Shown piece by piece: positions 10,262 to 46,267 of a stretch of DNA of 64,000 nt. Numbering within the stretch: the first letter of the stretch is position 1; each line of letters starts with the position of its first letter. The notes under the pieces were generated by a model. That model saw only the letters and a list, made by a program, of their open reading frames with translations, had not been told where the DNA came from and did no database searches. This stretch comes from Arthrobacter sp. QXT-31 (GTDB lineage Bacteria; Actinomycetota; Actinomycetes; Actinomycetales; Micrococcaceae), in contig NZ_CP019304.1 of the NCBI RefSeq assembly GCF_001969265.1, positions 2,790,001-2,854,000 of the forward strand, written 5' to 3'. The translations under genes and the position numbers were made by a program.

Positions 10262-10300
10262 ATATGCAACAGAGTGCTTTCCGTCACAGCCTTTTGTCAA
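10262..10300 (-). promoter_or_regulatory. Promoter module A, leftward (ferredoxin-BCCT-purU-dmg paralogue)
   Basis: On the minus strand TTGACA (10300-10295), 18 bp, then CACTCTGTTGCATAT (10276-10262). The same arrangement recurs at 10350, 27588, 33281, 33313 and, diverged, 46262. TTGACA fits a -35 box; CACTCT would fall at -10 and GTTGCATAT just after it, suggesting an activator- or repressor-controlled promoter. It faces away from module B in the same 249-bp gap. Confidence 0.65.
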
Positions 10301-10349
10301 GGGCAGGGGGCCCGATTACGCGCCCGTTCTTTTATGAGTCATTTGCCCC

Positions 10350-10387
10350 TTGACAGTGACGGTGGCATGGATCACTCTGTTGCATAT
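10350..10387 (+). promoter_or_regulatory. Promoter module B, rightward (ferredoxin reductase and Rieske oxygenase)
   Basis: TTGACA (10350-10355), 17 bp, CACTCTGTTGCATAT (10373-10387), 45 bp before the reductase ATG. It is the mirror of module A. The two CACTCTGTTGCATAT boxes sit at the outer edges of the pair with the -35 boxes inside. Confidence 0.65.
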
Positions 10388-10432
10388 AGCGATTGTTGTT
10401 GCGCTAAAAGCAATAGAAAGAGGGGTGTACAT

Positions 10433-11674
10433 ATGCAGACGCTTGCGATCGTGGGAGCCTCCCTGGCCGGTCTTTCCGCCGCGCGGGCAGCCCGCGCCCA
10501 AGGCTTTACCGGACGGCTCGTCATCATCGGCGATGAAGAGCACCGTCCGTACGACAGGCCGCCGCTCTCCAAGGACTTCCTGCTCGGGTCCATCACGGCG
10601 GAGGACCTGTCCCTGGAGACCGAAACCGACGACCTCGATGCCGAGTGGCTGCTGGGCGTAGGAGCCGTGTCCCTGGACGCGTCGTCGAAGATCATTGGCC
10701 TGTCCAACGGCAAGGTGGTCCAGGCCGACGGCATCGTCATCGCCACCGGCGCACGCGCCCGTCAGCTGCCGGCCCTGGCCGGCCTGAGCAACGTCTTCTC
10801 ATTGCGCACCCTCGCCGATGCGCAGAGCCTGGCGCCTGAACTGGTGCCGGGCAGCAAGATGGCCGTCATCGGTGCCGGCTTCGTTGGCGCCGAGGTTGCC
10901 TCTTCCGCAGCTTCCCGCGGGATGGACGTCACCCTGGTCGACACCAAGCCCGTGCCGTTCGCCGCCCAGCTGGGCATGGAAATGGGCTCTGTGGTGGGCG
11001 GACTGCACACCACCAAGGGTGTCCGGCTCATCTCGTCGGCAGTCATTGAAGACTTCTACTCGGGTGAAGGGAACGTGACCGGCCTCCGGCTGGCCGACGG
11101 CACCTACATCGCCGCCGACGTTGTGGTGGTGGGCATTGGCGCGGAGCCGAATGTTGAATGGCTCGCCGGTTCCGGCGTGGAGGTCGACGGCGGGGTGCTG
11201 TGCGATGCGATGGGACGCACCAATGTTCCGGGCATCGTAGCGGTCGGTGACTGCGCCGCCTGGTTCGACGCCGCTGTTGACAGGCACCGCCGGGTGGAGC
11301 ACTGGACCGGCGCCCTGGAGCGGGCCGCACTTGCGGTGCAGGCCCTGTTCGACGACGACGCCCCGGCTCAGCCGCTGAAGCCGCCGTACTTCTGGTCGGA
11401 CCAGCACGGCGTGAAGATCCAGTTCGCCGGCCACTCCGCCGGCTACGACCGCCTCGAGGTCGAGGCGGGCGATGCTGCCGAGCACAGCCTGCTGGCCATC
11501 TACTACCGCGAAGACGTTCCCGTCGCCGTTCTGGGCATGAACCAGCCGCGGCTGTTCACCAAGTGGCGCAGGAGCCTCGCGCCGTCGGCACCCAGGCCGG
11601 CAGCCGCCGTCGTGCCCTCAGCTTTGGCGCCGGCGGGCGAACCCGCCCTTGCCGGTGCCGCCGCGGGGCTTTAG
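10433..11674 (+). CDS. NAD(P)H:ferredoxin reductase of the betaine oxygenase (first copy)
   Basis: FAD enzyme of the pyridine-nucleotide-disulphide reductase fold, 413 residues, reducing the Rieske ferredoxin. FAD motif IVGASLAGLSAARAA at the N-terminus, RPYDRPPLSKDFL (~36-48), NAD motif VIGAGFVGAEVASSA near 143-157, and the closing FAD segment GIVAVGDCAAWF. The C-terminal reductase domain contains PPYFWSDQHGVKIQ, typical of oxygenase-linked reductases. Start chosen at ATG 10433, where the family motif begins and GAAAGAGGGG lies upstream; the longer upstream reading covers the promoter. A ~350-bp stretch of the 3' half is almost identical in DNA to the copy at 33395. Co-transcribed with the oxygenase 56 bp downstream. 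Confidence 0.92.
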   Translation: MQTLAIVGASLAGLSAARAARAQGFTGRLVIIGDEEHRPYDRPPLSKDFLLGSITAEDLSLETETDDLDAEWLLGVGAVSLDASSKIIGLSNGKVVQADGIVIATGARARQLPALAGLSNVFSLRTLADAQSLAPELVPGSKMAVIGAGFVGAEVASSAASRGMDVTLVDTKPVPFAAQLGMEMGSVVGGLHTTKGVRLISSAVIEDFYSGEGNVTGLRLADGTYIAADVVVVGIGAEPNVEWLAGSGVEVDGGVLCDAMGRTNVPGIVAVGDCAAWFDAAVDRHRRVEHWTGALERAALAVQALFDDDAPAQPLKPPYFWSDQHGVKIQFAGHSAGYDRLEVEAGDAAEHSLLAIYYREDVPVAVLGMNQPRLFTKWRRSLAPSAPRPAAAVVPSALAPAGEPALAGAAAGL

Positions 11675-11730: not shown

Positions 11731-12957
11731 TTGTCTGTTGAGGTATCCACCCCGAGCCTGATCCCCACGCTGGGCGGCCACCTGTACACGGATCCGGCGA
11801 TCTTCCGGGCCGAGCAGGAGCGTATTTTCGAGCAGATGTGGTTCTGCGCGATCCGGTCCTCGGACCTGGGGAAGCCCGGGGCATGGCAGACGGTGCAGAT
11901 TGGCCGCGAAAGCGTGCTGATCTCGCGCACCCGCAAGGGCGAGATCCGCGCCTTCTACAACGTCTGCCGGCACCGCGGCGTGAAGCTGTGCATGGAGGAA
12001 AAGGGCGAAGCTGCCCGCAACTTCCAGTGCCCGTACCACGCCTGGACCTATGACTTCGAGGGCAAGCTCATCGCGGCCCCGAACCTGACCAAGATGCCGG
12101 ACATCGACCGCGACGAGTACGGCCTGTCCAAGGTCCACATCCGCGAATACCTGGGCTACGTGTGGGTCTGCCTGGCCGAGGAGCCGCCGTCCTTCGAAGA
12201 GGAAGTCATGGGCGCAATCGAGGAGCGCCTCGGCAACGTCCACGCCATCGACGGCTACGATGTGGCCAACCTGTCCGTGGGCCGCCGCATCCGCTACGAC
12301 GTGAAGGCCAACTGGAAGCTCATCATCGAGAACTTCATGGAGTGCTACCACTGCGCCACCATCCACCCGGAGCTGACCGAGGTCCTGCCCGAGTTCGCCG
12401 ACGGCCTGGCCGCGCAGTACTTCGTGGGCCACGGCGCCGAGTTCGGTGAGGACATCAAGGGCTTCACCGTGGACGGCTCCGAGGGCCTGGACGTCATCCC
12501 GGGCGTGGCCGAGGACCAGGACCGCCGCTACTACGCGATCACGATCAAGCCGACCGTGTTCGTGAACCTGGTTCCGGACCACGTCATCATCCACCGCATG
12601 TTCCCGATGTCCGCAGACCACACCATCGTCGAATGCGACTGGCTGTACCTGCCCTCCGTGGTGGAGTCCGGCAAGGACGTCAGCGCCTCCGTTGAGCTGT
12701 TCCACCGCGTGAACATGCAAGACTTCGACGCCTGCGAGCGTTGCCAGCCGGGCATGGCCTCCAAGTCCTACGCCAAGGGCGGCGTGCTCGTCCCCAGCGA
12801 ACACCACATCGGCGCTTTCCACGACTGGGTCCAGGAAAAGGTCGGCGACGTCCCGCTGTCCGGAGAAGCCCTGCTGGGCCTCACCCCGGACACCCCGCCG
12901 CTGGAAGAGCGTGCAGAAACCATGCAGCAGAAAGAGACCGCAACCCCGGCCTCCTAA
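11731..12957 (+). CDS. Rieske non-haem iron oxygenase, glycine betaine monooxygenase-like
   Basis: Terminal oxygenase, 408 residues, predicted to hydroxylate an N-methyl group so that it leaves as formaldehyde, giving dimethylglycine from betaine. Rieske ligands Cys79/His81 (NVCRHRG) and Cys100/His103 (CPYHAW). Mononuclear iron site in NFMECYHCATIHPEL with His207 and His212; the third ligand is probably the Asp of NMQDFDACERC. The ECYHC...HPEL pattern resembles GbcA of Pseudomonas. TTG start at 11731, with AGGAGA 5 bases upstream. Unlike Pseudomonas GbcA/GbcB, the partners here are a separate Rieske ferredoxin and a disulphide-reductase-type flavoprotein. Stachydrine- or carnitine-type substrates cannot be excluded, but the flanking dimethylglycine oxidase and BCCT genes favour betaine. 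Confidence 0.88.
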   Translation: MSVEVSTPSLIPTLGGHLYTDPAIFRAEQERIFEQMWFCAIRSSDLGKPGAWQTVQIGRESVLISRTRKGEIRAFYNVCRHRGVKLCMEEKGEAARNFQCPYHAWTYDFEGKLIAAPNLTKMPDIDRDEYGLSKVHIREYLGYVWVCLAEEPPSFEEEVMGAIEERLGNVHAIDGYDVANLSVGRRIRYDVKANWKLIIENFMECYHCATIHPELTEVLPEFADGLAAQYFVGHGAEFGEDIKGFTVDGSEGLDVIPGVAEDQDRRYYAITIKPTVFVNLVPDHVIIHRMFPMSADHTIVECDWLYLPSVVESGKDVSASVELFHRVNMQDFDACERCQPGMASKSYAKGGVLVPSEHHIGAFHDWVQEKVGDVPLSGEALLGLTPDTPPLEERAETMQQKETATPAS

Positions 12958-13029: not shown

Positions 13030-13836
13030 CTACCGGTGCGTGTAGCCCATCTTTCCGCTGATGACCAGGCCGGCATCCTTCAGGCCCTGGATCAGTCCCG
13101 GAGTGTTTTCCGGGTCGAAGCGGAAGGCAGGGCCGGAGATGCTGACGGACCCGATAACTGTCCCGAAGTGGTTGTAGATGGGCACGGCAACGGCGGTCAG
13201 GCCTATCTCGAACTCCTCGTGGACAATGGCATAGCCGTCGCGCGACACGTCGAGGAGCTGTTTTTCCAGGGTGTCCCGGTCCGTGATGGTCCGCGGGGTA
13301 CGTGCAGGCAGGCCCGTCTTCTGGAGGATGCGTGAGCGTTCTTCGACCGGCAAGGCCGCCAGCATTACCTTGCCGCTGGAGGTGGCGTGGAGGGGCGTGA
13401 GGCTGCCCACCCAGTCGGAGGTCGCCAGCGTCGACGGGCCCATGGCCTGGTCCACGTTTACCGCGTAGTTGGAGCGCAGCACGGCGAGGTTGACGGTCTC
13501 CTTGTACTGGTCCGCGAGGCTCTCCAGAACGGGGCGTGCCTCGTGGACCAGGCTCAGCCTGCCGGGAATGGAGCTGGCCAGGCGCAGGATGCCAAAGCCC
13601 AGCTGGTACTTGCCGCGGTCGCTGTTCTGCCGCACGATCTCCCGGGACACCAGCGAGCCGATCAGCCGCGAGACGGTGGACTTGTGGACCCCCATCTCTT
13701 CGGCGATTTCACTGACGCCTGCATGCCCGTCCCGGGCCAGGATTTCCAGGATCTGGAGGGCGCGGTCGACGGACTGGACGCCTCCGCCCTGGGCGTCCGG
13801 ACCCCGTTCGGTCCACTGTTCGTCTCTTGCAGCCAT
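13030..13836 (-). CDS. IclR-family regulator (paralogue 1)
   Basis: 268 residues. N-terminal winged helix (~20-80): VQSVDRALQILEIL, then GVSEIAEEMGVHKSTVSRLIGSL as the recognition helix. The C-terminal GAF-like effector domain carries the IclR signature LHATSSGKVMLAAL and SISGPAFRFDP. Close relatives lie at 34692 (about 80% identical by eye) and 46428 (more distant). All three sit beside genes driven by the TTGACA-N17-CACTCTGTTGCATAT module, so this protein is the obvious candidate regulator of modules A and B. The ligand is probably betaine or a demethylated product; this is inference. Confidence 0.93.
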   Translation of the reverse strand: MAARDEQWTERGPDAQGGGVQSVDRALQILEILARDGHAGVSEIAEEMGVHKSTVSRLIGSLVSREIVRQNSDRGKYQLGFGILRLASSIPGRLSLVHEARPVLESLADQYKETVNLAVLRSNYAVNVDQAMGPSTLATSDWVGSLTPLHATSSGKVMLAALPVEERSRILQKTGLPARTPRTITDRDTLEKQLLDVSRDGYAIVHEEFEIGLTAVAVPIYNHFGTVIGSVSISGPAFRFDPENTPGLIQGLKDAGLVISGKMGYTHR

Positions 13837-15556: not shown

Positions 15557-15586
15557 CTTTCTCCTAATTACTTGATTACTTGCCAT

Positions 15587-16328
15587 CTACGTTTGCAGGT
15601 TTTGGGCCGGGTGCGGACCCGTCAGCGCAGGTGCCAGGCGTTCCTGGCCCACATACGCGTTCAGGCTCTTGCCCCGACTGAAGCCCACGAGGGTTACGCC
15701 GGTATCGGCGGCGAGGTCGGCTGCCAGGCTCGAGGGCGCACTGACCGCTGCCAGGACCGGGATGCCGGCGAGGGCGGCCTTCTGGACGAGCTCGAACGAC
15801 GCCCGGCCCGAGACCTGCAGGACCGTGCCGCGCAACGGGAGGAGCCCTTCGCGCAGCGCCCATCCGATCACCTTGTCCACGGCGTTGTGCCGGCCCACAT
15901 CCTCACGGAGGCACAGCAGCTCAGCTGAACCGCCGTCGTCGATCCTGAACAGCCCTGCCGCGTGGACGCCGCCGGTCTTGTCGAACAGCGCCTGGGCTTC
16001 GCGCAGCTGTTCTGGCAGGCGCGCAAGCACGTCGACCGGCACGCGCAGCCGGTCCTGGTGCACGTCATGGTTGAGGGTCTTGCGGACGGCCTCGATGGAC
16101 GTGCTGCCACAGATCCCGCAGGAGCTGGAGGTGTAAACGTGCCGCCCGGTGTCCGGAAGGATAAGGCCGGGACGGAACTGCGCTTCCACCACGTTGAAGG
16201 TCTGCCGGCCGGTTTCGTCCTCGCCGGCGCAGAAGCGGAGCGACACAAGGTCCTCCTGGCTGCGGATGATGCCTTCGGAGACGAGGAACCCGGCCACGAG
16301 GTCAAAGTCGTCGCCGGGGGTCCGCATG
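15587..16328 (-). pseudogene. fdhD: 3' part of fdhD (formate dehydrogenase sulfurtransferase), split by an IS
   Basis: FdhD moves sulfur from a cysteine desulfurase to the molybdenum cofactor of formate dehydrogenase. This part encodes about 245 residues from MRTPGDDFDLVAGFL to the stop at 15587, including the catalytic Cys pair in SSSCGICG, REDVGRHNAVDKV and QVSGRASFELVQKAALAGIP. The first ~50 codons are 1.4 kb away at 17712-17863 beyond an IS481-type element. Because the transposase is itself frameshifted, its reading frame now runs straight into this segment, giving one open frame of 686 codons (15587-17647). An ATG at 16327 could also restart translation. Activity is doubtful, since the N-terminal part contributes to the fold. 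Confidence 0.88.
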
Positions 16329-16343
16329 GTCACGGCAAAGGAG

Positions 16344-21405: not shown

Positions 21406-24887
<3,482 letters not shown>

Positions 24888-25779: not shown

Positions 25780-27237
25780 CTAGCGCCACGCCTGCTGGGA
25801 AGCGACGAGCTCGTGCGCCTCCTCTACCGTGTCCACGCTCGGCATGGAGCCCGGCAGCGGCCGGCGGGCGGATTCACGCAGGAAGTAGATGGCAATCGCC
25901 CCAATGACCGACGTCGCCATCAGGTAGTATGCGGGGGCCATGTCGTCGCCCGTGGCCTCGATCAGGGCCTGGATGAGGAACGGCGTTGTTCCGCCGAAAA
26001 TGGCCACCGAGAAGTTGTAGGCGATGCCCATGCTGCTGTAGCGGACGGAAGTGGGGAACAGTGCGGGCAGTGCCGAGGCGAGGTTGGCCACGTAGAACGT
26101 CACGGGAAAGGCGACCAGGGCGAGGCCGGCCAGCGTTGACCAGGTCTCGCCGATGCCGATCAGGGTGAAGGCAGGGACGGCGAACAGGACGGTGCTTCCG
26201 GCGCCGATCCACAGCACGGGACGCCTTCCGATGCGGTCCGAAAGCTTGCCGGTGAGCGGGATGCACAGCGCCATGACCACCAGCACCGGAATGGTCAGCA
26301 GGGTTCCGTGCACGGGGTCGTAGCCCTTGGATTCCGTCAGGTAGGTCGGCATGTAGGACGTCAGCGCATATCCGACGGTGTTGGCGGCGCCGGCGAGGAT
26401 CATCGCCAGCACGATCGGGCGCCAGTATGCAGCGATGATGCCCACGGGGCCCTTGGCAACAGCCGCATCGCCGGAGGCGGCTTCGACGGCGGCCGACTCC
26501 TGCGCGTTCAGGGCTGCCTGGAACTGGGGGGACTCTTCGATCCTGTTCCGGAAATAGATGGCCACCAGGCCCAGCGGCCCGGCCACCAGGAACGGCAGCC
26601 GCCAGCCCCATTCCTCCATCGCGGCTTCGCCGAGGGTGATCTGCAGGACTGAGACGGTGGCAGCGCCCAGGGCGAAGCCGATGTAGGAACCCATGTCCAG
26701 GAAGCTGGCAAAGTACCCGCGCCGCTTGTCGGGCGCGTATTCACACAGGAACGTGGTGGCGCCGGCGTATTCCCCGCCGGTGGAGAAGCCCTGCACGAGC
26801 TTCAGGAGCACCAGCAGCGCGGCGGCCCAGACGCCGATCTGTGCGTAGCCGGGCAGCAGGCCGACGGCGAAGGTGCTGGCCGCCATCAGCATCAGTGTGG
26901 CCGCGAGGACTTTCTGCCGCCCCACCTTGTCGCCAAGCCAGCCAAACACGACGCCGCCGATCGGGCGGGCGATGAAGGTGGCCGCGAACGTGCCGAGCAG
27001 GAACAGCGTCTGGACGGTCCTGTCTGCCTCCGGCAGGAACACCGGGCCCATGGTGGTGATCAGGTAGCCGAACACGCCGACGTCGTACCACTCCATGGTG
27101 TTGCCCACCACTGTGCCGCCGAGGGCCTTCTTGAGCATCCGCTGGTCCACGACGTTTACGTCGGACGCCGTGAGTCGGCGGGAGGCCTGTCTATCCTTAC
27201 TGCTTGGCTCGGTTGTGACATCACCTTTGATTGTCAT
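25780..27237 (-). CDS. MFS metabolite:H+ symporter, ProP-like
   Basis: 485 residues, 12 membrane helices. Typical MHS-family sequence: GNTMEWYDVGVFGYL in helix 1, FGWLGDKVGRQKVL in the 2-3 loop, QGFSTGGEYAGATTFLCEYAP after helix 4, and GKLSDRIGRRPVL in the second half. Likely imports proline, betaine or another compatible solute. The first ~20 residues and the 5' leader resemble those of the BCCT carrier at 33052, not of MHS relatives (MTIKGDVT versus MTINSDVT), as if a BCCT promoter and start region had been joined to this gene. Promoter module C lies ~320 bp upstream. Confidence 0.9.
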   Translation of the reverse strand: MTIKGDVTTEPSSKDRQASRRLTASDVNVVDQRMLKKALGGTVVGNTMEWYDVGVFGYLITTMGPVFLPEADRTVQTLFLLGTFAATFIARPIGGVVFGWLGDKVGRQKVLAATLMLMAASTFAVGLLPGYAQIGVWAAALLVLLKLVQGFSTGGEYAGATTFLCEYAPDKRRGYFASFLDMGSYIGFALGAATVSVLQITLGEAAMEEWGWRLPFLVAGPLGLVAIYFRNRIEESPQFQAALNAQESAAVEAASGDAAVAKGPVGIIAAYWRPIVLAMILAGAANTVGYALTSYMPTYLTESKGYDPVHGTLLTIPVLVVMALCIPLTGKLSDRIGRRPVLWIGAGSTVLFAVPAFTLIGIGETWSTLAGLALVAFPVTFYVANLASALPALFPTSVRYSSMGIAYNFSVAIFGGTTPFLIQALIEATGDDMAPAYYLMATSVIGAIAIYFLRESARRPLPGSMPSVDTVEEAHELVASQQAWR

Positions 27238-31153: not shown

Positions 31154-33052
31154 CTAGTGGTGCTTGTCCCCGCTCGGATCAAGCTCACCCTTGGCGCACC
31201 GTTCATCGCATTCGTGCTTGGTCACAAGATCGAACTGGACGCCTCCGTGCTTTTCCACCCCGCTCCGGATGGAGCGCTCGACGACGGATGTAACCAGCCG
31301 GCTCCGCAGTGACAGCGGGTCCCTGCGCAGGTCCCTCGTGAGGGCAAAGCACATCAGGAACATCACGATGACGAAGGGCAGCGCGGACACGATGGTTATC
31401 CGCTGCAGTCCGGAGAGCGCCTCGGCGGGCTTGTCACCGCCGGCGAGCAGCATCACTGCGGCGACGGCGCCGGTGAGGGTGCCCCAGAAGATAACGACGC
31501 CGCGGCGCGGTTCTTCAGCACCGTCGGAGCTGAGCGAACCCATCACGATGGAGGCTGCGTCGGCGCCCGTGACGAAGAAGATGGCCACCAGGACCATCGC
31601 CAGGACGGACACCGCGGCGGCGATGACCGTGGGCAGGGACAGGTTGTGCAGCAGGTCGAACAGGGCACCGTCGAAGGAAATCGAGGGAGTCCCGTCCACG
31701 ATCGTGGCCAGGCCGTCGCCGGCATCCGGGGTGGCATCTGCCGCGGACTGGATGTTGACGGCAGCACCGCCGAAGACGCCGAACCAGATCACGCTGACGA
31801 TGCTGGGGACCAGCAGGACGCCGGTGACGAACTGGCGGATGGTGCGGCCGCGGCTGATGCGGGCGATGAACAGGCCTACGAAGGGGGTCCAGGAAACCCA
31901 CCAGGCCCAGTAGAAGATGGTCCAGCCGGACATCCACGTGCGCAAGGCGTCGTCGCCGACGGCCTCGGTCCGGGAAGCCATCTCGGCCAGGTCCCGAGCA
32001 TAGTCGCCGACTGCAGCCGGGATCAGGTTCAGGATGAAGAGCGTTGGCCCGGCAACGAACACGATAACTGCCAGGACTGCAGCCAGGACCATGTTGATGT
32101 TGGACAGCCACTGGATGCCGCGGCTGATTCCGGAGACCGCCGAGGCCACGAAGCAGGCTGTGAGCACGGCAACGATCACCACGAGCACGGGGGTGGCGAG
32201 CTGGCCGCCGATCCAGCCGTTGGAGGCCATGCCGCTGCCGATCTGCAGGGCTCCGAGTCCGAGCGATGCTGCCGTTCCGAACAGCGTGGCGAAGATGGCC
32301 AGCATGTTGATGAGCTTGCCGAGGGGGCCGTCCACGCGCTTGATGCCGAACAGGGACGTGAAGATGCTGGAAACGAGCTGCTTCCGGCCCAGTCGGTAGG
32401 TGCCGTAGGCCATGGCAACGCCCACCACCGCATACATGGCCCACGGGTGCAGGGTCCAGTGGAAGATTGAGGTTGCCATTGCAGTCTGGATGGCCGCGGG
32501 AGTCTGGCCGTCAACCGTGCCCGGCGGCGGGGAGATGTAGTGGTAAAGCGGTTCGGCCACGCCGTAGAACATCAGGCCGATGCCCATGCCTGCGGCGAAC
32601 ATCATGGAGACCCACGAGACCATGGAGTACTCGGGCTTTTCCGCGTCTTTGCCCAGCGGAATGTTTCCGAAGCGGCTCAGCGCCAGCCACAGCACGTAGA
32701 CCACGAACAGGGAGGAGAGGGCGACGAACAGCCAGCCGGTGTTTTTCATGACCCAGTCCAGGACCACCTGGGACGTGGAGGCCAGGTTCTCCCTGCCGGC
32801 AAATCCCCAGATAACAAAGGCGAGCGTGAGCAGTCCGGCGACGCCGAAGACTACCTTGTCGATGCCTCCCTTGCGGAACAGCTGGCTGCTGCGGCGTGCT
32901 TCTTCATGCTCTGATTCGGTTTCCCGGAGGGCCTGAAGGATTTGCAGGTCTTCCTGGGGAGGAACAGGTTCCCGTTCCAAGGTCGGTTCCACCCCCGAGG
33001 CCCGACCGTCTTCACTGCTTTCATCGATAGTGACGTCACTATTGATTGTCAT
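31154..33052 (-). CDS. BCCT-family betaine/choline/carnitine transporter (second copy)
   Basis: 632 residues, roughly four in five residues the same as the copy at 7918 by eye across the membrane part. Same landmarks: GMGIGLMFYGVAEPLYHY, GWTIFYWAWWVSWTPF, ARISRGRTIRQF. The N-terminus differs (MTINSDVTIDESSED) and resembles that of the ProP-like gene. The cytosolic tail again carries a Cys/His group (KHECDERC ... DKHH). It stands alone on the minus strand behind promoter module D, with a decayed ferredoxin remnant between promoter and start. Likely imports betaine or a relative. Confidence 0.93.
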   Translation of the reverse strand: MTINSDVTIDESSEDGRASGVEPTLEREPVPPQEDLQILQALRETESEHEEARRSSQLFRKGGIDKVVFGVAGLLTLAFVIWGFAGRENLASTSQVVLDWVMKNTGWLFVALSSLFVVYVLWLALSRFGNIPLGKDAEKPEYSMVSWVSMMFAAGMGIGLMFYGVAEPLYHYISPPPGTVDGQTPAAIQTAMATSIFHWTLHPWAMYAVVGVAMAYGTYRLGRKQLVSSIFTSLFGIKRVDGPLGKLINMLAIFATLFGTAASLGLGALQIGSGMASNGWIGGQLATPVLVVIVAVLTACFVASAVSGISRGIQWLSNINMVLAAVLAVIVFVAGPTLFILNLIPAAVGDYARDLAEMASRTEAVGDDALRTWMSGWTIFYWAWWVSWTPFVGLFIARISRGRTIRQFVTGVLLVPSIVSVIWFGVFGGAAVNIQSAADATPDAGDGLATIVDGTPSISFDGALFDLLHNLSLPTVIAAAVSVLAMVLVAIFFVTGADAASIVMGSLSSDGAEEPRRGVVIFWGTLTGAVAAVMLLAGGDKPAEALSGLQRITIVSALPFVIVMFLMCFALTRDLRRDPLSLRSRLVTSVVERSIRSGVEKHGGVQFDLVTKHECDERCAKGELDPSGDKHH

Positions 33053-33394: not shown

Positions 33395-34600
33395 ATGCAG
33401 ACGCTTGCGGTTGTGGGAGCCTCGCTGGCCGGTCTTTCGGCGGCCAGGGCGGCCCGCGCTCAAGGCTTCTCCGGACGGCTGGTCATCATTGGCGATGAGC
33501 ATCACCGTCCCTACGACAGGCCCCCGCTCTCCAAGGATTTCCTGCTCGGCACCATTACGGCAGAGGACCTGTTCCTTGAGACCGATGATGACGGATTGCA
33601 CGCGGAGTGGATTCTGGGCGGCGGTGCCGTTGGACTGGATGCAGCCGAGCGGACCATCCGCCTGCACGACGGCGGCACCGTCACTGCCGACGGCATCGTC
33701 ATAGCCACCGGTGCACGCGCGCGCCAGATCCCCGCCCTCGCCGGCCTGGAGAATGTCTCCTACCTGCGGACCATGGCCGATGCCCAGGCGCTGACGCCCA
33801 GGTTGGTGGCCGGTGGCCGCATGATCGTGATCGGTGCCGGCTTCATCGGCGCCGAGGTTGCCTCCTCCGCCGCCTCACGGGGGATGGAGGTGACCATGAT
33901 CAACAACGGCCCGGTCCCGTTCACTGCGCAGCTCGGCGAGGACATGGGTTCCGTGGTGGCCAGGCTCCATGCGGCCAACGGGGTGAACCTGGTCTGTGGC
34001 ACCGGCATCGAGGAGTTCCACCGCGCGGGCAACAGCGTGACGGGGCTCCGTTTGGCGGACGGCCGGGAGCTCGCCGCCGACGTTGTGGTGGTGGGCATCG
34101 GTGCGGAGCCGAATGTTGAATGGCTCGCCGGTTCCGGCGTGGAGGTCGACGGCGGTGTGCTGTGCGATGCGATGGGACGCACCAATGTTCCGGGCATCGT
34201 CGCCGTGGGCGACTGCGCCGCCTGGTTCGACGCCGCTGTTGACAGGCACCGCCGGGTGGAGCACTGGACCGGCGCCCTGGAGCGGGCCGCCCTGGCGGTG
34301 CAGGCCCTGCTCGACGACGACGCCCCGGCTCAGCCGCTGAAGCCGCCGTACTTCTGGTCGGACCAGCACGGCGTGAAGATCCAGTTCGCCGGCCACTCCG
34401 CCGGCTACGACCGCCTGGAGATTGAGGCGGGCGATCCGCAGGAGCACAATTTCCTCGCCATCTACTACCGCGAAGACGTTCCCGTCGCGGTCCTGGGCAT
34501 GAACCAGCCACGGCTGTTCACGAAGTGGCGCAGGAGCCTGGCCGTTCCGGCGCCGCGGGCGGACACGCCGCAGGGCCTGGCGGCGGCAACCAAACCGTAG
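33395..34600 (+). CDS. NAD(P)H:ferredoxin reductase (second copy)
   Basis: 401 residues, paralogue of the reductase at 10433. FAD motif VVGASLAGLSAARAA, DRPPLSKDFLL, NAD motif VIGAGFIGAEVASSA, and GIVAVGDCAAWF. The N-terminal half differs at many codons from copy 1, but about 34080-34430 is nearly identical at DNA level, which suggests recent gene conversion. No oxygenase or intact ferredoxin accompanies it, so it may serve the cluster-1 oxygenase or another. ATG at 33395 with AAGGAAGAAG upstream; IclR paralogue 2 lies convergently downstream. Confidence 0.9.
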   Translation: MQTLAVVGASLAGLSAARAARAQGFSGRLVIIGDEHHRPYDRPPLSKDFLLGTITAEDLFLETDDDGLHAEWILGGGAVGLDAAERTIRLHDGGTVTADGIVIATGARARQIPALAGLENVSYLRTMADAQALTPRLVAGGRMIVIGAGFIGAEVASSAASRGMEVTMINNGPVPFTAQLGEDMGSVVARLHAANGVNLVCGTGIEEFHRAGNSVTGLRLADGRELAADVVVVGIGAEPNVEWLAGSGVEVDGGVLCDAMGRTNVPGIVAVGDCAAWFDAAVDRHRRVEHWTGALERAALAVQALLDDDAPAQPLKPPYFWSDQHGVKIQFAGHSAGYDRLEIEAGDPQEHNFLAIYYREDVPVAVLGMNQPRLFTKWRRSLAVPAPRADTPQGLAAATKP

Positions 34601-34642: not shown

Positions 34643-34693
34643 AACCGCTGGTTGAGCCTGTCGAAACCCCGACAAGCTCAACCAGCGGTTTTT
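34643..34693. terminator. Bidirectional hairpin terminator
   Basis: AACCGCTGGTTGAGC...TGTCG / CGACA...GCTCAACCAGCGGTT followed by TTTT, between the convergent reductase 2 and IclR 2 genes; its edge touches the IclR stop. Confidence 0.8.
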
Positions 34694-35501
34694 AACGCCG
34701 GGTGTAGCCCATGTTCGAACTGATCTTCATGCCGGCCTGGCTCAGGCCATCGATCAGGCCGGGTGTTTTCTCCGGGTCAAAGCGGAAGGCCGGGCCGGAG
34801 ATGCTGACCGCGCCGATCACGGTTCCCAGGTGGTTGTAGACCGGCACCGCCATGGAGTTCAGCCCAATTTCAAACTCTTCAAGGACCACTGCGTAACCGT
34901 CGTGGGCGACGTCGATAAGCTGCTTTTCGAGCTTGTCGCGGTCGGTGATGGTCCGCTGGGTCCGGGCCGGAAGCCCTGTCTCCTCCAGGATGCGTTCCCG
35001 TTCATCTGCCGCCAGCGCTGCCAGCAGAACCTTCCCGCTCGACGTCGCGTGCAAGGGCGTCAGGCTGCCCACCCAGTCGTAGGTGGCCAGGGTTGACGGC
35101 CCCATGGCCTGGTCCACGTTGACGGCGTAGTTGGAGCGGAGAACGGCGAGGTTGACGGTTTCCTTGAACTCCTCCGCCAGGCTTTCGAGCACAGGGCGCG
35201 CCTCCCGGACCAGGCTCAGCCGGCCGGGAATGGAACTGGCCAGGCGAAGGATGCCAAAGCCGAGCTGGTATTTTCCCCGTTCGCTGTTCTGGTGAACAAT
35301 CTCCCTGGTCACCAGGGAACCGAGCAGCCTGGATACGGTGGATTTGTGGATTCCCATTTCCTCGGCGATTTCGCTCACGCCTGCATCGCCGTCGCGGGCC
35401 AGGATCTCCAGGACAGCGAGGGCTCGATCGACGGACTGGACGCCGCCCTGCTGGCTGCCTTCACCGTCGGCATCGGATTCAAGGACAATGTTCGAAGCCA
35501 T
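34692..35501 (-). CDS. IclR-family regulator (paralogue 2)
   Basis: 269 residues. HTH GVSEIAEEMGIHKSTVSRLLGSL and effector domain LHATSSGKVLLAALAADE, SISGPAFRFDPEKTPG. Nearly the same protein as paralogue 1 (13030), differing mainly at the N-terminus and in scattered effector-domain residues, so both may recognise the same DNA box with different or overlapping ligands. Sits convergent to reductase 2, the same position paralogue 1 has relative to the oxygenase. Confidence 0.93.
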   Translation of the reverse strand: MASNIVLESDADGEGSQQGGVQSVDRALAVLEILARDGDAGVSEIAEEMGIHKSTVSRLLGSLVTREIVHQNSERGKYQLGFGILRLASSIPGRLSLVREARPVLESLAEEFKETVNLAVLRSNYAVNVDQAMGPSTLATYDWVGSLTPLHATSSGKVLLAALAADERERILEETGLPARTQRTITDRDKLEKQLIDVAHDGYAVVLEEFEIGLNSMAVPVYNHLGTVIGAVSISGPAFRFDPEKTPGLIDGLSQAGMKISSNMGYTRR

Positions 35502-40974: not shown

Positions 40975-42006
40975 CTAGTTGGTGGCGACGGTGCGGAAGC
41001 CGCAGTTGCCGGAGGAGGATTCAGGGGTGTTGAAGGTGCGGGCGGCGACGCGGTAGCGGTTGCAGTACGAGTCATGGCAGAGGTAGGAGCCGCCTCGCAT
41101 AACGCGCCCCTTGCCGATGGTGGGCCCTTGAGGATTGTCGGTGGGGGAGTTCCAGTAGTACTTGGGCAGGAACCAGTCGCTGCACCATTCCCAAATGTTG
41201 CCTGCCATTTCGTAAAGCCCGTAGCCGTTAGGAGGAAAAGACATAACGGGGGCGGTACCCAGGTGGCCGTCCTCTTGGATGTTCACTGCGGGGAACGCGC
41301 CCTGCCAGATGTTGCAGCGGTGTTCCCCGCCGGGGGTGAGGTCGTCGCCCCACGCGTAGCGCATGCCGTTCAGTCCGCCGCGGGCGGCGTATTCCCATTC
41401 GGCTTCGGTGGGCAGGCGGCGTCCGGCCCAGGCACAGTAAGCCAGTGCATCGTGGTGCGAGACGTGCACCACCGGGTGGTCCGGGACATCCCGCCAGTTC
41501 GATGACGGTCCCGTCGGGTGTGCCCAATAGGCGCCGCGGATCTCAAGCCACCAGGGGGCCCCCGCGGCGGCACCGAGGACATCGCTGCCGGTCGCCGTGC
41601 ACAGCAGATGGAACACGGCGGAGGACCCGTACTGCTCCGCCTCTGTCCGGTAGCCCGTGGCGTCTACGAACGCCGCGAACATTGAGTTGGTCACTGCCGT
41701 CGCGTCGATACGGAAGCCATCCACGCGCACCTCGTGCACCGGTGTCTCGCCGTCGGACGGATAGCCTTCGCCAAAAGCATCACCCATCTGGAAGGGCCCA
41801 CCGGGAATCTCGATGTCACGGTGCATGTCCGGCCCGGGACCAGGTGTGGAGTGCGCCTTAGGCCTGGCGGCGTCTTCCGTTGGCCGGGGTTCACGGGATG
41901 GTGTGCAGCAGCCCTTGCCAGGGGCGCCCGTGTGAAGGCCACGGGGTTCAGCGTAGTTCGTGGAGCTGAGGGGCAGCAGGTTCATGATCGTGGGTTTCCC
42001 AAGCAT
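40975..42006 (-). CDS. Formylglycine-generating enzyme (sulfatase-activating)
   Basis: Oxidises the active-site Cys of sulfatases to formylglycine, using O2 and copper. Up to 343 residues; the first ~60 are low-complexity and the conserved part begins IEIPGGPFQMGDAFGEGYP. Close to Streptomyces coelicolor FGE: LPTEAEWEYAARGG, RYAWGDDLTPGG, AGNIWEWCSDWF, and the copper-binding pair in GGSYLCHDSYCNRYR (Cys310, Cys315). Its substrate is surely the arylsulfatase just upstream. The true start is unclear: ATG 42006 has a weak ribosome site, with alternatives at 41985 and 41826. A 13-bp hairpin lies just ahead. Confidence 0.93.
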   Translation of the reverse strand: MLGKPTIMNLLPLSSTNYAEPRGLHTGAPGKGCCTPSREPRPTEDAARPKAHSTPGPGPDMHRDIEIPGGPFQMGDAFGEGYPSDGETPVHEVRVDGFRIDATAVTNSMFAAFVDATGYRTEAEQYGSSAVFHLLCTATGSDVLGAAAGAPWWLEIRGAYWAHPTGPSSNWRDVPDHPVVHVSHHDALAYCAWAGRRLPTEAEWEYAARGGLNGMRYAWGDDLTPGGEHRCNIWQGAFPAVNIQEDGHLGTAPVMSFPPNGYGLYEMAGNIWEWCSDWFLPKYYWNSPTDNPQGPTIGKGRVMRGGSYLCHDSYCNRYRVAARTFNTPESSSGNCGFRTVATN

Positions 42007-42017
42007 TGGTTCGATTC

Positions 42018-42060
42018 TTCTGTGTCCGCCGATGCGGTGAGGCCGACGGCGGACACAGAA
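42018..42060. promoter_or_regulatory. Intercistronic hairpin between sulfatase and FGE genes
   Basis: TTCTGTGTCCGCC / GGCGGACACAGAA, a perfect 13-bp stem with a 17-base loop. It starts 12 bases before the FGE ATG and follows the sulfatase stop by about 60. It could lower FGE output relative to sulfatase, or be a terminator with FGE separately expressed. Confidence 0.5.
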
Positions 42061-42121
42061 GGGGCAGCTTTGCGGGTGTGCTTCCTGTCAGAAGATGTCC
42101 GGTACTGGCTGGTTGTGCCGG

Positions 42122-44473
42122 CTACTGGTGGGCCAGGGCAATGCGCTGCCGGTCGGTTGCCGTGAGGTGCTGCTCTGTTCCGTCGTCGTGCAGGTCGATG
42201 CGCACGGTTTCGATTGTTCCGGTGAACGCGTTGTGCACCGGGAGATAGTCGTCGGTGACTGGCGTGCCGCGGTCGACCCCGACGTTGAGCGTTTCATCGA
42301 AGGAGAAGTAATAGGCGGTCGTCTGCTCCACACGGCCCTTGCCGACGACCTTGCCGCCGGCGGCGAGCCGGACCTCCCCGCCCCTGCCGATGCCGCCGCC
42401 GTCGTACTGGAACTCAAAGGTAAGTTCCTGGGGACCAGCTTCCAGCCGCTCATCCGAGCGCACAGTGTAAAGATCCCGGCCGTAGCAGTTGTGGGCATAG
42501 CTGAGGTGGCCGTCCACCACATACAGGGACCAGCCTCCAAAACGCCCGCCCTGCGCAATGAGGACCCCGTCGCCGCCGCCTTCCGGGATGTCCACCCGTG
42601 CAGTGACGCTGTGCGACCTGTTCTTCACGTTAAGGGTTGTCTCCTCGGTAAAGCGCCCCATTCCGCCCCGATAGGTCACTGAGGTCCTGCCACTGAACAG
42701 GTCGATCCGGCCGGCCACTTCCGGGTTCTCCCGTTCGGTGACACGGTCATCGAGGGGGAACACGTTGTACTTGCTGGCTTCAATCAGGAAAAGGTGCTGA
42801 AGTTCCCGCAGTTTGTCCGGGTACTTTTCTGCCAAGTCGTGCGCTTGGCTCCAGTCGGTCCGGGTGTCGTAGAGCTCCCACACATCCTTGTCGAAGGCCG
42901 GGAGTCCTTCGGGCACCATTTGCCAGGGAGTGCCATGGCGGGTGACTGCAGTCCATCCCTCGTGGTAGATGCTGCGGTTTCCGCACATCTCAAAGTACTG
43001 GGTCCGCCGGCGGTCCTCAGCGTCGGGAGCGTTGAAGGTATAGACCATGCTGGTGCCCTCGATGGGCTGCTGACTGACGCCGTTGACCAGAACAGGGTGG
43101 GGGACTCCTGCTGCTTCGAAGACCGTGGGGGCGATGTCGATGACGTGGTGCCACTGGTGCCGGATCCCGCCACCGGCTTCGATACCTTGGGGCCAGCTCA
43201 TGATCATGCCGTCCCGGGTGCCGCCGTAGTGCGAGGCGACCTGTTTTGTCCATTGGTATGGGGTGTTCATGGCCAGCGCCCACCCGACAGGGTAGATGGC
43301 GTAGGTAGTTGCGTCCCCCAGGGCATCGATCTCGTTGGCCATTGTTTCGGTGCTGTCCTGAAAACCGTGGCCGACCAGGTGCTCACGCATCGTGCCTTCG
43401 ATGCCGCCTTCGCCCGAAGCACCGTTGTCACCGAGCATGTAGATGAACAGGGTGTTGTCCAGTTGGTCGATGTCCCTTAGAGCGTCCACGAAGCGCCCCA
43501 CCTGCCGGTCCGTGTGCTCGGCGAAACCTGCGTAGGTTTCCATGAAGGCTGCGGCGACGCGGCGTTCTGTGCCGTTCAGTTCGTCCCAGTGCGGCACGAC
43601 ATCGGCCCAGGGCCCGAGTTCGGCAGATTCCGGGACAATGCCAAGTTCCTTCTGCCGGGCCAAGGTCGCTTCGCGCTGGGCGTCCCAGCCGCCGTTGAAG
43701 CGGTCGCGGTACTTGTCCTTCCATTCCTTGCCGACATGGAAGGGACCGTGCGTGGCGCCGAAAGCGATGTAGCTGAAGAACGGCTTCTCCGGCGTGAGTG
43801 TCTTCTGCGTGCGGACCCAGTCGATGGCGTGATCGACGAGGTCTTCGGAGAGGTGATAGCCATCTTCTGGCAGCCGGTCCGGTTCCACAGGAGTGGTTCC
43901 GTCAAACAGTTGGGGGTACCAGTGGTTCATCTCGGCGCCCATGAAGCCGTAAAACTTGTCGAAACCCTCACCAATGGGCCAACGGTCAAAGGGACCTGAA
44001 GCGCTGACTTCCCGCGGAGGGGTCTGGTGCCACTTTCCGAATGCGGCCGTGCTGTAGCCGTTCTGGCCAAGCGTCTGCGCAATCGTGGCGGCACTGGCCG
44101 GGCGGAAACCGGTGTAACCGGGGGCGGACGTGCTCATCTCGGTGGTCACTCCCATGGCGACGGAGAGGTGGTTCCGGCCAGTCATGAGCGCCTGGCGGGT
44201 AGGGGAGCACAACGCCGTGACGTGGAAGCGGCTGTACCGGAGGCCATCGTCGGACAGCCTGTCCGCCGTCGGCATCTCACAGGGGCCACCGAAGGCGCTC
44301 GAGGCACCAAATCCCATGTCATCGATCAGGACGATCACCACGTTGGGAGCACCTTCGGGTGCCCTGAGCGGAGCCACCGGGGTGAACGCGCTCTCCTGAT
44401 TGTGGATGCCCATTGCCGTGGTCACGGTCCGGTTCCGCTCCGGGATCGGGAGGATCTCGCGAATCTCGGTCAT
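42122..44473 (-). CDS. Type I (formylglycine) arylsulfatase, long form
   Basis: 783 residues, cytoplasmic by absence of a signal peptide. Metal-binding VVIVLIDDMGFG with Asp51/Asp52; Cys89 in LCSPTRQALMTGR is the C-x-P-x-R site converted to formylglycine; further landmarks FGKWHQTPP, LGDNGASGEGG and KPFFSYIAFGATHGPF. A long C-terminal beta-rich part (~560-783) is typical of the ~780-residue arylsulfatase group. It lacks the hallmarks I know for choline sulfatase (BetC, ~500 residues), so choline-O-sulfate is not assured. AAAAGGAG precedes the ATG. Lies between an MFS carrier and FGE on one strand; sulfate scavenging or sulfate-ester use is likely. Confidence 0.93.
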   Translation of the reverse strand: MTEIREILPIPERNRTVTTAMGIHNQESAFTPVAPLRAPEGAPNVVIVLIDDMGFGASSAFGGPCEMPTADRLSDDGLRYSRFHVTALCSPTRQALMTGRNHLSVAMGVTTEMSTSAPGYTGFRPASAATIAQTLGQNGYSTAAFGKWHQTPPREVSASGPFDRWPIGEGFDKFYGFMGAEMNHWYPQLFDGTTPVEPDRLPEDGYHLSEDLVDHAIDWVRTQKTLTPEKPFFSYIAFGATHGPFHVGKEWKDKYRDRFNGGWDAQREATLARQKELGIVPESAELGPWADVVPHWDELNGTERRVAAAFMETYAGFAEHTDRQVGRFVDALRDIDQLDNTLFIYMLGDNGASGEGGIEGTMREHLVGHGFQDSTETMANEIDALGDATTYAIYPVGWALAMNTPYQWTKQVASHYGGTRDGMIMSWPQGIEAGGGIRHQWHHVIDIAPTVFEAAGVPHPVLVNGVSQQPIEGTSMVYTFNAPDAEDRRRTQYFEMCGNRSIYHEGWTAVTRHGTPWQMVPEGLPAFDKDVWELYDTRTDWSQAHDLAEKYPDKLRELQHLFLIEASKYNVFPLDDRVTERENPEVAGRIDLFSGRTSVTYRGGMGRFTEETTLNVKNRSHSVTARVDIPEGGGDGVLIAQGGRFGGWSLYVVDGHLSYAHNCYGRDLYTVRSDERLEAGPQELTFEFQYDGGGIGRGGEVRLAAGGKVVGKGRVEQTTAYYFSFDETLNVGVDRGTPVTDDYLPVHNAFTGTIETVRIDLHDDGTEQHLTATDRQRIALAHQ

Positions 44474-44560
44474 TGTCTTGCTGCTCCTTTTGGTCTGTGG
44501 GTGAGTGATTCGCGCCTGTGGGACGCGGCTGGGGAGGTAGCCAATGGCCTGCTTGCTTCG

Positions 44561-45970
44561 CTACGTGATGTCAGCGCCCTGCCTGGGGTTACTGCCGGCG
44601 GTGGAGATGGGCGCAGGCTGAGGGGACGTCGCCATCACCTCAATCGCACCGGTCTCTTCCAGCGAGCGGTTCCGGGTTTCTTCAGCCCAGGCGATGCAGG
44701 CGAGAAAGCCGATGAACGTGATGCCCGCGCCGATGTACATCGTCGTCGACGTGCCCAGGGTTGATAGGGAGAGCGGGACCAGGAAGGTTCCGATAGCGGC
44801 ACCGAAGCGGGTCAGTGCAACGGCCATCCCCACAGCGGCGGCGCGAATGCGGGTTGGGAAGAGCTCGTTGGGATAGGCCCACTCAAGGATGCTCGGGCCT
44901 CCGGAGAACAGCGCGTACAGGCAGAAGAAGCCTACGACGAACGGACCCGGGGCATTAGTCCACGCCCCCAGTGCGAGCAGCGGGAGCACCATCAGGCCAA
45001 AGGACCAGATGATGGTCTTGCGTCGGCCAATGTTGTCGAGCATGCGCATGGCCGGCAGGCAGCCGATCGCGAACACGAGGTTGATGAGGGCTGTTCCGAG
45101 GTTCGCCTCGTTGCCTGATTCCATGCCCAGCGATCCCAGCAATTGCGGACCGAAGGTGAGCAATGCAAACAGCGGTACGATCGCGCAGGTGAAGAAGACG
45201 ACGATGAAGACCATGCGGCGCAGGTAAATCCCGCGGAAGAGGTCGGCGATATTGCCCCGCCCTTCGTTCGAGAGGGGCATGGAGCCTGCCAGTTCAGCGG
45301 GTGTCACCTTGGTGTCAAGGGTGGACTCGATGACCTTGCAGGCCTCGTCGATGCGTCCGGCGCCGACCAGCCACCGCGGTGATTCCGGCGTGCCCACACG
45401 AAGCAGGAAGACGATCGTGGCAAGCACCGCGGCGGTTGCGAGCATCCAGCGCCAGCCGTCGTCGCCCATCACTTCGTTGATGAGATACCCCACCAGGTAG
45501 GCCAGGGACGCGCCGATGTACCAGATGATGATTACTGCGCTGAACATGCGGGCTCGCCGTTTGGTCGGGAGCCACTCAGAAAGCAGCGCGGTGGCAATGG
45601 GATAGTCGGCAGCGATAGCGGCGCCAATGACAAAGCGCAGGATGATCAAATGCCAGGCTTCGGTGGCAAAGATTGAAAGCACCGAGGTGACGATCAGGAC
45701 AAGCAGATCGAGGGTGTACATGGGTTTTCGGCCAATGCGGTCCGTCAGCGGGCCGCAGATCAGGCCGCCGAAGAACATGCCAATCAGTGAGGCGACGCCG
45801 ATCATCGCTTCAGTGCTCGTTGGCAAATGCATTTCTCTAGTGATGCCGGGAAGTGCGATGCCGACAATCGCGAGCAGGTAACCGTCAAGCAGGGGGCCTC
45901 CTGAACACGCAACTATGAGCTTGCGATGGAAGCCCCGGATGGGGGCCTCGTCTACTGATCTGAAACTCAT
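44561..45970 (-). CDS. MFS transporter linked to the sulfatase
   Basis: 469 residues, 12 membrane helices. Start at ATG 45970 (MSFRSVDEAP) because GAGGAGACCC lies just ahead. Motifs: GGPLLDGYLLAIVGIALPG in helix 1, GPLTDRIGRKPMYTLDLL in loop 2-3, AADYPIATALLSEWLPTKRRA, and YPNELFPTRIRAAAVGMAVA in helix 10-11, typical of the sugar-porter/organic-ion group. First gene of the leftward sulfatase operon; probably imports the sulfate ester or exports its product. Promoter module F lies ~260 bp upstream. Confidence 0.88.
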   Translation of the reverse strand: MSFRSVDEAPIRGFHRKLIVACSGGPLLDGYLLAIVGIALPGITREMHLPTSTEAMIGVASLIGMFFGGLICGPLTDRIGRKPMYTLDLLVLIVTSVLSIFATEAWHLIILRFVIGAAIAADYPIATALLSEWLPTKRRARMFSAVIIIWYIGASLAYLVGYLINEVMGDDGWRWMLATAAVLATIVFLLRVGTPESPRWLVGAGRIDEACKVIESTLDTKVTPAELAGSMPLSNEGRGNIADLFRGIYLRRMVFIVVFFTCAIVPLFALLTFGPQLLGSLGMESGNEANLGTALINLVFAIGCLPAMRMLDNIGRRKTIIWSFGLMVLPLLALGAWTNAPGPFVVGFFCLYALFSGGPSILEWAYPNELFPTRIRAAAVGMAVALTRFGAAIGTFLVPLSLSTLGTSTTMYIGAGITFIGFLACIAWAEETRNRSLEETGAIEVMATSPQPAPISTAGSNPRQGADIT

Positions 45971-46228
45971 GGGTCTCCTCACAATCACTTTCGGTGGAGT
46001 AGGAATGGCAGGGCGCGGGCGAAGGCCGGAATTGAAGGCACGCGTCTTCGTCGTGACGTTCAACGGCTTCTACGGGTTGCGCCACTTTTGGAAGAAAAGG
46101 GCGAATGGTCGATCAGGGGGTCGGGACGCAGAGCAGGGGATGTGTTGCTCCCTTCAAATCCCGCTGGTCCGCATTGGGGTGACGCAGACCCTCTAGGGCG
46201 TGGTTGCGGTAGAAGCAACAACATTTCC

Positions 46229-46267
46229 TATGTGAAACAGTCTGAACGGCAGTGTTCGCGCTGTCAA
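46229..46267 (-). promoter_or_regulatory. Promoter module F, leftward, diverged (MFS-sulfatase-FGE)
   Basis: Minus strand TTGACA (46267-46262), 17 bp, CAGACTGTTTCACATA (46244-46229). Spacing is the same as in modules A-E and the box keeps CA..CTGTT and CATA-like ends. The 457-bp gap 45971-46427 holds this and a GGTTGC..GCAAC inverted repeat near 46203-46220; no gene seen. Confidence 0.45.

Follow-up and report, generated by a model that had tools for sequence, protein, structure and literature searches.

Arthrobacter sp. QXT-31 carries six copies (A to F) of a compact promoter module within a 64,000-nucleotide stretch of contig NZ_CP019304.1 (positions 2,790,001 to 2,854,000 of the forward strand), here called the window; unless another locus is named, coordinates count from its first letter. 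Each copy comprises a TTGACA hexamer, a -10 candidate of the form CANNCT 17 or 18 bp further on, and two tandem 17-bp sites of the IclR type; a CRP-like palindrome overlaps the spacer and the -10 region, clearly in A, C, and D, imperfectly in B and E, and not at all in F. The genes behind the module fit quaternary-amine uptake and demethylation. Judged from sequence comparison, the six copies are probably sigma-70-type promoters of one inducible regulon, repressed by IclR-family proteins through the tandem operators, released by a betaine-like inducer, and perhaps subject to a further CRP/GlxR-like input.

Promoter positions are numbered relative to the CTG of a 15-bp box, CACTCTGTTGCATAT, which is exact in copies A (10276-10262) and B (10373-10387) and has one mismatch in C (27570-27556) and E (33336-33350); copy D keeps only CACTCTGTTGC of it, and in F the box has diverged to CAGACTGTTTCACAT. 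A sequence-only reading of the window had described six copies, each with TTGACA 17 or 18 bp ahead of the box. Pattern and matrix searches recover all six where it placed them, and the measured spacers are 18 bp in A and D and 17 bp in B, C, E, and F. The box, taken there for a single promoter element, does not hold together as one: conservation splits it into the -10 candidate, which is also the right half (CACT) of the CRP-like element, and the left part of the first IclR-type site, which opens with GTTGCATAT. A second IclR-type site, unseen by that reading, begins exactly 19 bp after the first in all six copies, F included, and the conserved unit extends beyond the box to +37. The divergent pairs A/B and D/E, said to have the same geometry, agree in orientation but not in spacing, with 49 bp between the two TTGACA hexamers of A/B and 26 bp between those of D/E. 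Because the genes flanking the two pairs are paralogous (77% for the BCCT transporters, 79% for the reductases, and 82% for IclR1 and IclR2), D/E is best explained as a duplication of A/B.

Copy A (10300-10235, minus strand) has its -35 at 10300-10295, the CRP-like element TGTGACGGAAAGCACT at 10288-10273, the -10 hexamer CACTCT at 10276-10271, site 1 at 10270-10254, and site 2 at 10251-10235; it heads the genes for a Rieske ferredoxin, BCCT1, PurU, and DMGO1 (a dimethylglycine-oxidase-like protein). Opposite it, copy B (10350-10414, plus strand) heads reductase 1 and the Rieske oxygenase, with the -35 at 10350-10355, a CRP-like element with a weak left half at 10361-10376, the -10 at 10373-10378, and the two sites at 10379-10395 and 10398-10414. 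Copy C (27593-27529, minus strand) heads the ProP-like carrier; its -35 lies at 27593-27588, the CRP-like TGTGAGCTGACGCACT at 27582-27567, the -10 at 27570-27565, and the sites at 27564-27548 and 27545-27529. Copy D (33286-33221, minus strand), which heads BCCT2, consists of the -35 (33286-33281), the CRP-like TGTGACGTAAAGCACT (33274-33259), the -10 (33262-33257), a diverged site 1 (33256-33240), and site 2 (33237-33221). In copy E (33313-33377, plus strand), ahead of reductase 2, the corresponding positions are 33313-33318, 33324-33339 (imperfect), 33336-33341 (CACGCT), 33342-33358, and 33361-33377. Copy F (46267-46203, minus strand) heads the genes for an MFS carrier, a sulfatase, and a formylglycine-generating enzyme (FGE), and is made up of the -35 (46267-46262), the -10 hexamer CAGACT (46244-46239), site 1 GTTTCACATAGGAAATG (46238-46222), and site 2 GTTGCTTCTACCGCAAC (46219-46203).

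Within the genome the module is confined to these six places. The box alone, at up to three mismatches, has four matches in the window against 0.53 expected by chance, and none of 100 shuffles reaches four. The extended pattern CTGTTGCATA-N4-GA-N5-GTTG-N8-GNAAY, at up to three mismatches, retrieves exactly A to F from the whole 5,041,568-bp genome (no mismatch in A, B, C, and E; three in D and in F), and its reversed control retrieves nothing. A pattern joining -35, -10, and box start, TTGACNN{17,18}CANNCTGNTNC, likewise finds exactly A to F at zero mismatches, with two matches for its reversed control. A matrix covering -5 to +37, built from 71 dereplicated sites of relatives with no window sequence, places the six copies first to sixth in the window (B 61.4, C 57, A 54, E 49, D 40, and F 20.3 bits); rank seven scores -17.4 bits, 38 below F, and the best score among six first-order Markov versions of the window is -7.4. 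The relatives' sites were themselves picked with a window-derived pattern, so this test is strong but not blind. The notion that F is a chance copy is ruled out by the extended pattern, the -35/-10 pattern, and the relatives' matrix. Random placement of matches, which would have spoken against a promoter role, is not what is seen: besides this ranking, the module precedes the same genes in relatives and not the neighbouring genes.

The relatives comprise 80 named loci gathered by similarity to the three IclR proteins of the window, with up to 10 kb on each side, rather than a random sample of genomes; by title, 79 belong to Arthrobacter, Paenarthrobacter, or Pseudarthrobacter, the remaining one is labelled Micrococcaceae bacterium, and seven are metagenome-assembled. 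At up to three mismatches the pattern has 92 matches in 63 of the 80 loci, and the reversed control has none at up to four; 14 additional matches with four mismatches are excluded from all counts, and dropping 21 near-duplicates leaves the 71 sites used for conservation counts. A TTGACA hexamer (at most one mismatch, spacers of 14-21 bp allowed) accompanies 90 of the 92 matches and stands 17 or 18 bp from CANNCT in 88, in support of the earlier proposal that TTGACA is the -35 and that the box overlaps the -10 and the start. TTGAC begins at -27 in 47 of the 71 sites and at -28 in 19; 46 sites have CACTCT as their -10 hexamer and 19 have CACGCT. TTGACA and the GTG and CAC of the CRP-like element lie outside the search pattern and are thus conserved independently of it; GTTGC at +2 and GTTG...GNAAY at +21, which are fixed in relatives, lie inside it. 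An A at +9 is invariant in the relatives (71/71), where it also belongs to the search pattern, and is T in copy D. Just 5' of the -35, at -34 to -32, a run of A (77-89%) marks the transporter-type promoters (48/71) and is weak in the reductase type; it resembles an UP element or may be another site.

None of the 92 matches falls within an open reading frame (ORF) homologous to any of 20 proteins taken from the window for comparison. For 84 of the matches, the first window-homologous gene within 700 nt downstream encodes a BCCT transporter (33), a Rieske ferredoxin (26), a reductase (21), or a ProP-like carrier (4); the remaining eight have none. The converse tally took genes of at least 55% identity with at least 300 nt of upstream sequence available, scanned 550 nt upstream, and dropped three genes near contig ends. 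By this count the module (up to three mismatches) precedes 24/24 ferredoxin, 20/24 reductase, 46/55 BCCT, and 3/3 ProP genes of the 80 loci, and 1/25 PurU genes. In the same loci it is absent upstream of the genes for DMGO (0/47, with one site at four or five mismatches), oxygenase (0/24), IclR (0/78), FolD (0/23), LuxR (0/12), and MoaA (0/2). The site thus marks where the operons of one pathway begin, rather than the entire locus, and IclR autoregulation through the module is rejected, as 0/78 IclR genes carry it upstream. In a close relative (L140, position 7383, minus strand), the 12 kb surrounding BCCT2 show no reductase; TTGACA persists in the reductase-side promoter, whose pattern match has five mismatches. 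The same relative has an extra module copy (L141, position 5254, plus strand) upstream of another MFS carrier (36% to that of the window), so that the regulon extends to other loci in some species.

Both downstream sites fit an established operator class. The group-1 IclR operator has the consensus GTTYCRYW3RYGRAAC, that is, GTT and AAC separated by 11 nt, and tandem sites 18-22 nt apart are described for 94 of 181 IclR groups (Suvorova and Gelfand 2021, PMC8222616). Moved along the 71 promoters, this consensus peaks at +2 (12.4/17) and at +21 (12.6/17); the next offset reaches 9.5 and the mean is 6.4. Both sites include letters of the search pattern, although that pattern was derived from the window copies independently of the published consensus. 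The centre-to-centre distance is 19 nt in all six window copies and, by pattern, in the relatives, within the published 18-22. By its 17-bp site match, its 19-nt spacing, and the IclR protein encoded nearby, the module is a fit to the group-1 tandem-operator class, and IclR binding is predicted. It shares with the published group-1 operators the 17-bp sites, the pairing at 18-22 nt, and an IclR gene near the regulated operon (PMC8222616). In contrast to that class, both sites here stand directly behind a fixed -35 and -10 and adjoin a CRP-like palindrome, and no copy precedes the IclR gene. The TphR operator TTTTTGCGCATAGCGCAAAAA (PMC8222616, Table 1) has a core that resembles the reductase-type site 2 (GTTGCGCATCAAGCAAT in E); it serves the terephthalate genes of Comamonas, and thus other genes in another lineage.

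The window encodes three IclR-family proteins: IclR1 (13030..13836, minus strand; PF01614/PF09339), IclR2 (34692..35501, minus strand; 82% to IclR1), and IclR3 (46428..47237, plus strand; 60% to IclR1), the last divergent from F. The suggestion that such proteins are the regulators gains support from their co-occurrence with the module and from the consensus fit. The pattern counts for genus, family, order, and class come from scans of whole genomes. Among 24 genomes of the genus, a close IclR1 relative (E up to 1e-95) and a pattern match occur in the same 18, and neither occurs in the other six. Among 295 genomes of the family, 89 have a pattern match (some by chance, as reversed-control matches occur in 14 genomes), 68 a close IclR1 relative, and 53 both; matches are found in 53/68 IclR-positive and 36/227 IclR-negative genomes (Fisher p 3e-21). 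In the order outside the family, matches at up to two mismatches occur in 4/229 genomes (reversed controls 0/248), and all four adjoin a Rieske ferredoxin gene. Three of these, from one genus, also adjoin an IclR gene 47% identical to IclR1 and have TTGACG 18 bp before the -10; the fourth has a BCCT gene and no TTGACA. A strict class-wide pattern with the -35 and no mismatches, which recovers four of the six window copies (D and F are missed), is found in 3/296 genomes, the only three genus members in the draw. The recognition-helix core reads HKST in IclR1, IclR2, 66 of 69 relatives among those listed, and two outgroup proteins (L150 and L152; 46-47% identical); in IclR3 it reads HRST, in step with the diverged copy F. 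IclR1 and IclR2 would be the candidates for A to E, with IclR3 probably controlling F.

The best NCBIfam model for all three proteins is BhcR, NF045644 (178, 184, and 183 bits), whose cut-off of 350 lies far above these scores. BhcR, an IclR-family regulator of glyoxylate metabolism, is an activator in Paracoccus, with a predicted site upstream of the -35 (PMC11323563).

The spacer element has the geometry of a CRP/GlxR site. Over the 71 sites TGTGAN6TCACA scores 7.0/10 at offset -16, with 4.9 at the next best offset and a mean of 2.5; the left half is weak in the reductase class. GTG stands at -15 in 58/71 and CAC at -4 in 66/71, and the two occur together in 58/71, which is the CRP/GlxR palindrome geometry. 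Near-perfect CRP-like sites occur in single relatives, for example TGTGATATAGCTCACT (L029). A CRP/GlxR-type protein (L116) is encoded in the genome, with E-values of 5e-75 to 4byy/4cyd, which we take to be GlxR, and 5e-81 to 3mzh. The element shares geometry and most letters with the published GlxR/CRP sites, TGTGA-N6-TCACA (PMC7999487), and differs from them in a right half that is mostly NCACT or NCACG, in its average of 7.0/10, and in its absence from F. As a third IclR site, with a centre about 18.5 nt from that of site 1, GTG-N8-CAC is rejected, the IclR consensus spacing being GTT-N11-AAC.

The proposed mechanism begins with promoters that combine a consensus -35 with a weak -10. Two IclR dimers, or one tetramer, would lie side by side right after the -10, on the two operators, whose centres are about two helical turns apart, and would cover the start and the first 30 or so transcribed bases. 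Without inducer, IclR1 and IclR2 would block RNA polymerase at A to E, and IclR3 probably at F. A quaternary amine or a breakdown product (glycine betaine, dimethylglycine, or similar) would bind and release the IclR protein, allowing transcription of the genes for the BCCT and ProP carriers, Rieske ferredoxin, reductase, oxygenase, PurU, and DMGO. The CRP/GlxR-like palindrome may add a global carbon (cAMP) input, likewise through its overlap with the polymerase site. If transcription starts at the +9 A, the IclR sites span about -7 to +29, an arrangement that suits repression relieved by inducer.

A number of observations weigh against this picture. Seventeen of the 80 loci have no pattern match, nine of the 55 BCCT genes lack a site, and four of the 24 reductase genes have one at four or five mismatches only. 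In the family survey, 15 of the 68 IclR-positive genomes have no match, and in one of the 18 doubly positive genomes of the genus (G268) the sole match, at three mismatches and without TTGACA, is probably due to chance. The right half of site 1 is weak, which makes this site an imperfect palindrome. CACTCT is a poor -10, and the conservation of its final T (98%) is partly built in by the search pattern, whereas its A (97%) lies outside that pattern; the TATAAT consensus scores best not there but at +8. The CRP-like element is missing from F, 13 of the 71 relatives' sites lack GTG-N8-CAC, and in copies of the reductase type the left CRP half, taken by itself, does not score best at its offset.

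The poor -10 hexamer would also be expected at activator-dependent promoters, and the IclR family includes activators, among them BhcR. Activation thus stays a live rival: at a weak promoter the IclR proteins would recruit RNA polymerase or remodel it, and the inducer would switch these proteins on. This seems unlikely, given that the -35 is consensus and strictly spaced and that the IclR-type sites follow the -10 and extend across and past the proposed start, and do not lie upstream of the -35 as predicted for BhcR (PMC11323563). Nor does the promoter appear to be shifted, with TATNGC at +8 as its -10 and GTGACG or GTGGCA at -15 as its -35, the IclR sites lying on the -10 and TTGACA belonging to another factor or a second promoter. 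TATAAT does score best at +8 (3.1/6 overall and 3.8 in the reductase class), and a secondary -35 peak (3.25/6) lies 17 bp away at -15, yet the sixth letter of the +8 hexamer is C in 84% and T in just 14%, and TTGACA scores higher (4.2/6 at -27 despite its two spacings) and keeps its distance to CANNCT in nearly every match; such a shift is quite improbable. Placing the -10 beyond site 2, with CRP acting as a class I or class II activator, is rejected, as no conserved -10 exists there (0-0.2 bits from +40 in the transporter class).

A CRP/GlxR role for the spacer palindrome is appreciably less secure. That it merely reflects promoter or IclR context, with IclR as the sole control, is a serious possibility, although we lean somewhat against it. 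The palindrome is lacking at that place in the outgroup copies as well as in F and the 13 relatives' sites, and its right half, CAC, coincides with the -10. Conversely, GTG-N8-CAC keeps the exact CRP geometry in 58/71 while most letters near GTG drift, the whole consensus peaks there, and L029 shows how closely single relatives approach a full CRP-like site. That the copies are functionless leftovers of gene duplication is hardly credible, even though A/B and D/E flank paralogous genes: C and F lie outside that duplication, the elements stay fixed across the 71 dereplicated sites while letters outside them drift, and in L140 the promoter at five mismatches goes with the lack of a reductase nearby, as expected under selection on the sites.

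The genes listed by the sequence-only reading behind each copy are supported, as is its local regulon, which fits quaternary-amine use. Behind A and B lie genes for a BCCT carrier, PurU, a paralogue of dimethylglycine oxidase, and the three parts of a Rieske oxygenase system. The first gene after A encodes the Rieske ferredoxin (9833..10183, minus strand; PF00355, HcaC-like), followed on the same strand by BCCT1 (7918..9801; PF02028, 568 bits), the formyltetrahydrofolate deformylase PurU (6940..7908; TIGR00655, 319 bits with a cut-off of 286), and DMGO1 (4397..6904; DAO and GCV_T domains, 68% to DMGO2). On the plus strand, B is followed by ferredoxin reductase 1 (10433..11674; PF07992/PF14759, start taken at MQTLAIVG) and the Rieske oxygenase alpha subunit (11731..12957; PF00848/PF00355, given provisionally from its first ORF start). 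DMGO2 (21406..23898, minus strand), with no module copy upstream, is a full-length match to crystallised N,N-dimethylglycine oxidase (1pj5, residues 1-830 of 830, 1824 bits). The ProP-like carrier behind C (25780..27237, minus strand) scores 475 bits against the ProP model NF007927 (cut-off 544). Its leader is long: 27238-27528 (minus strand) separates the module from the gene, and CTG and ORF start are 329 nt apart, compared with 101, 189, 191, and 214 nt in four relatives. BCCT2 (31154..33052, minus strand; PF02028) lies behind D, and ferredoxin reductase 2 (33395..34600, plus strand; 79% to reductase 1) behind E.

The best NCBIfam model for the oxygenase is GbcA, NF058607, at 226 bits against a cut-off of 670, and its best solved relatives include, by name, carnitine monooxygenase, as well as 3vca, which we take to be stachydrine demethylase. 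By that cut-off the enzyme is not GbcA, so betaine is suggested as its substrate by the neighbouring BCCT, DMGO, and PurU genes. In Pseudomonas, glycine betaine breakdown, the same task, is controlled by GbdR, an AraC-family regulator, and the enzyme is the two-part GbcAB. The present system differs in its regulator family and in having three separate Rieske-system genes.

The branch behind F consists, on the minus strand, of the MFS carrier (44561..46063; PF00083), a sulfatase of 783 aa (42122..44473; PF00884) whose best solved-structure matches are arylsulfatases, and FGE (40975..42006; PF03781). The sulfatase has no NCBIfam model match at 1e-20, although a model for the choline sulfatase BetC presumably exists in that collection. 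Two genomes of another genus (L135 and L136) have sulfatase genes 80-81% identical to it, each with FGE and an IclR gene behind it, and carry TTGACA with a diverged tandem site (five mismatches) about 3.8 kb upstream of the sulfatase. Between this F-like operator and the sulfatase, L135 encodes an ABC carrier whose binding protein is of the OpuAC family (Pfam, above cut-off) and whose ATPase resembles ProV (309 bits against a cut-off of 327); L136 has the same layout, judged by ORFs only. The clusters span 734-8790 in L135 and 494-8665 in L136, and their window counterpart spans 40975-47237. These neighbours tentatively point to the sulfate ester of a quaternary amine, for example choline sulfate, as the sulfatase substrate. 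Two further loci with sulfatase orthologues (L137 and L138; 77-79%) have FGE and neither an IclR gene nor a site in the 11-12 kb taken. The IclR proteins of the F-like clusters are closer to IclR2 (68-71%) than to IclR3 (60-62%), which weakens the assignment of IclR3 to F.

A broader view can be offered tentatively, and we regard it as doubtful. The module may be a lineage-wide 65-bp cassette of the Arthrobacter family with three inputs (a consensus -35, a CRP/GlxR palindrome overlapping the spacer and the -10, and a tandem pair of IclR operators covering the start), carried by duplicated IclR paralogues to new quaternary-amine branches, and the F branch may free a quaternary amine from its sulfate ester with a sulfatase outside BetC.

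In the literature searched, to which the PMC8222616 supplement and RegPrecise did not belong, no description of this regulon was found. The words betaine, choline, Rieske, and Arthrobacter are absent from the main text of PMC8222616, and its tables of 181 groups may hold this IclR group. The regulon is of the IclR tandem-operator type, and its composite promoter is unusually rigid; as regulation it represents a well-defined new instance of an established principle and not a new principle. Arthrobacter Rue61a was described in its 2012 genome paper as growing on glycine betaine, with the pathway listed as incomplete (PMC3534580). The first step absent from that pathway may be encoded by the operons behind A and B. 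The module supplies the probable control logic of betaine use in common soil actinobacteria and, by association, the set of genes involved, and its operator can serve as a search tool for additional regulon members.

Two further features of the window lie between the module copies. The catalase gene at 14058-15586 (minus strand) is split by a frameshift into two overlapping ORFs (PF00199 positions 1-249 and 245-381), reflecting either a broken gene or a sequencing error. At 15587-17647 (minus strand), a single open frame joins an IS481-type transposase to the formate dehydrogenase accessory protein FdhD, whose gene was apparently hit by an insertion element within or ahead of its 5' part.

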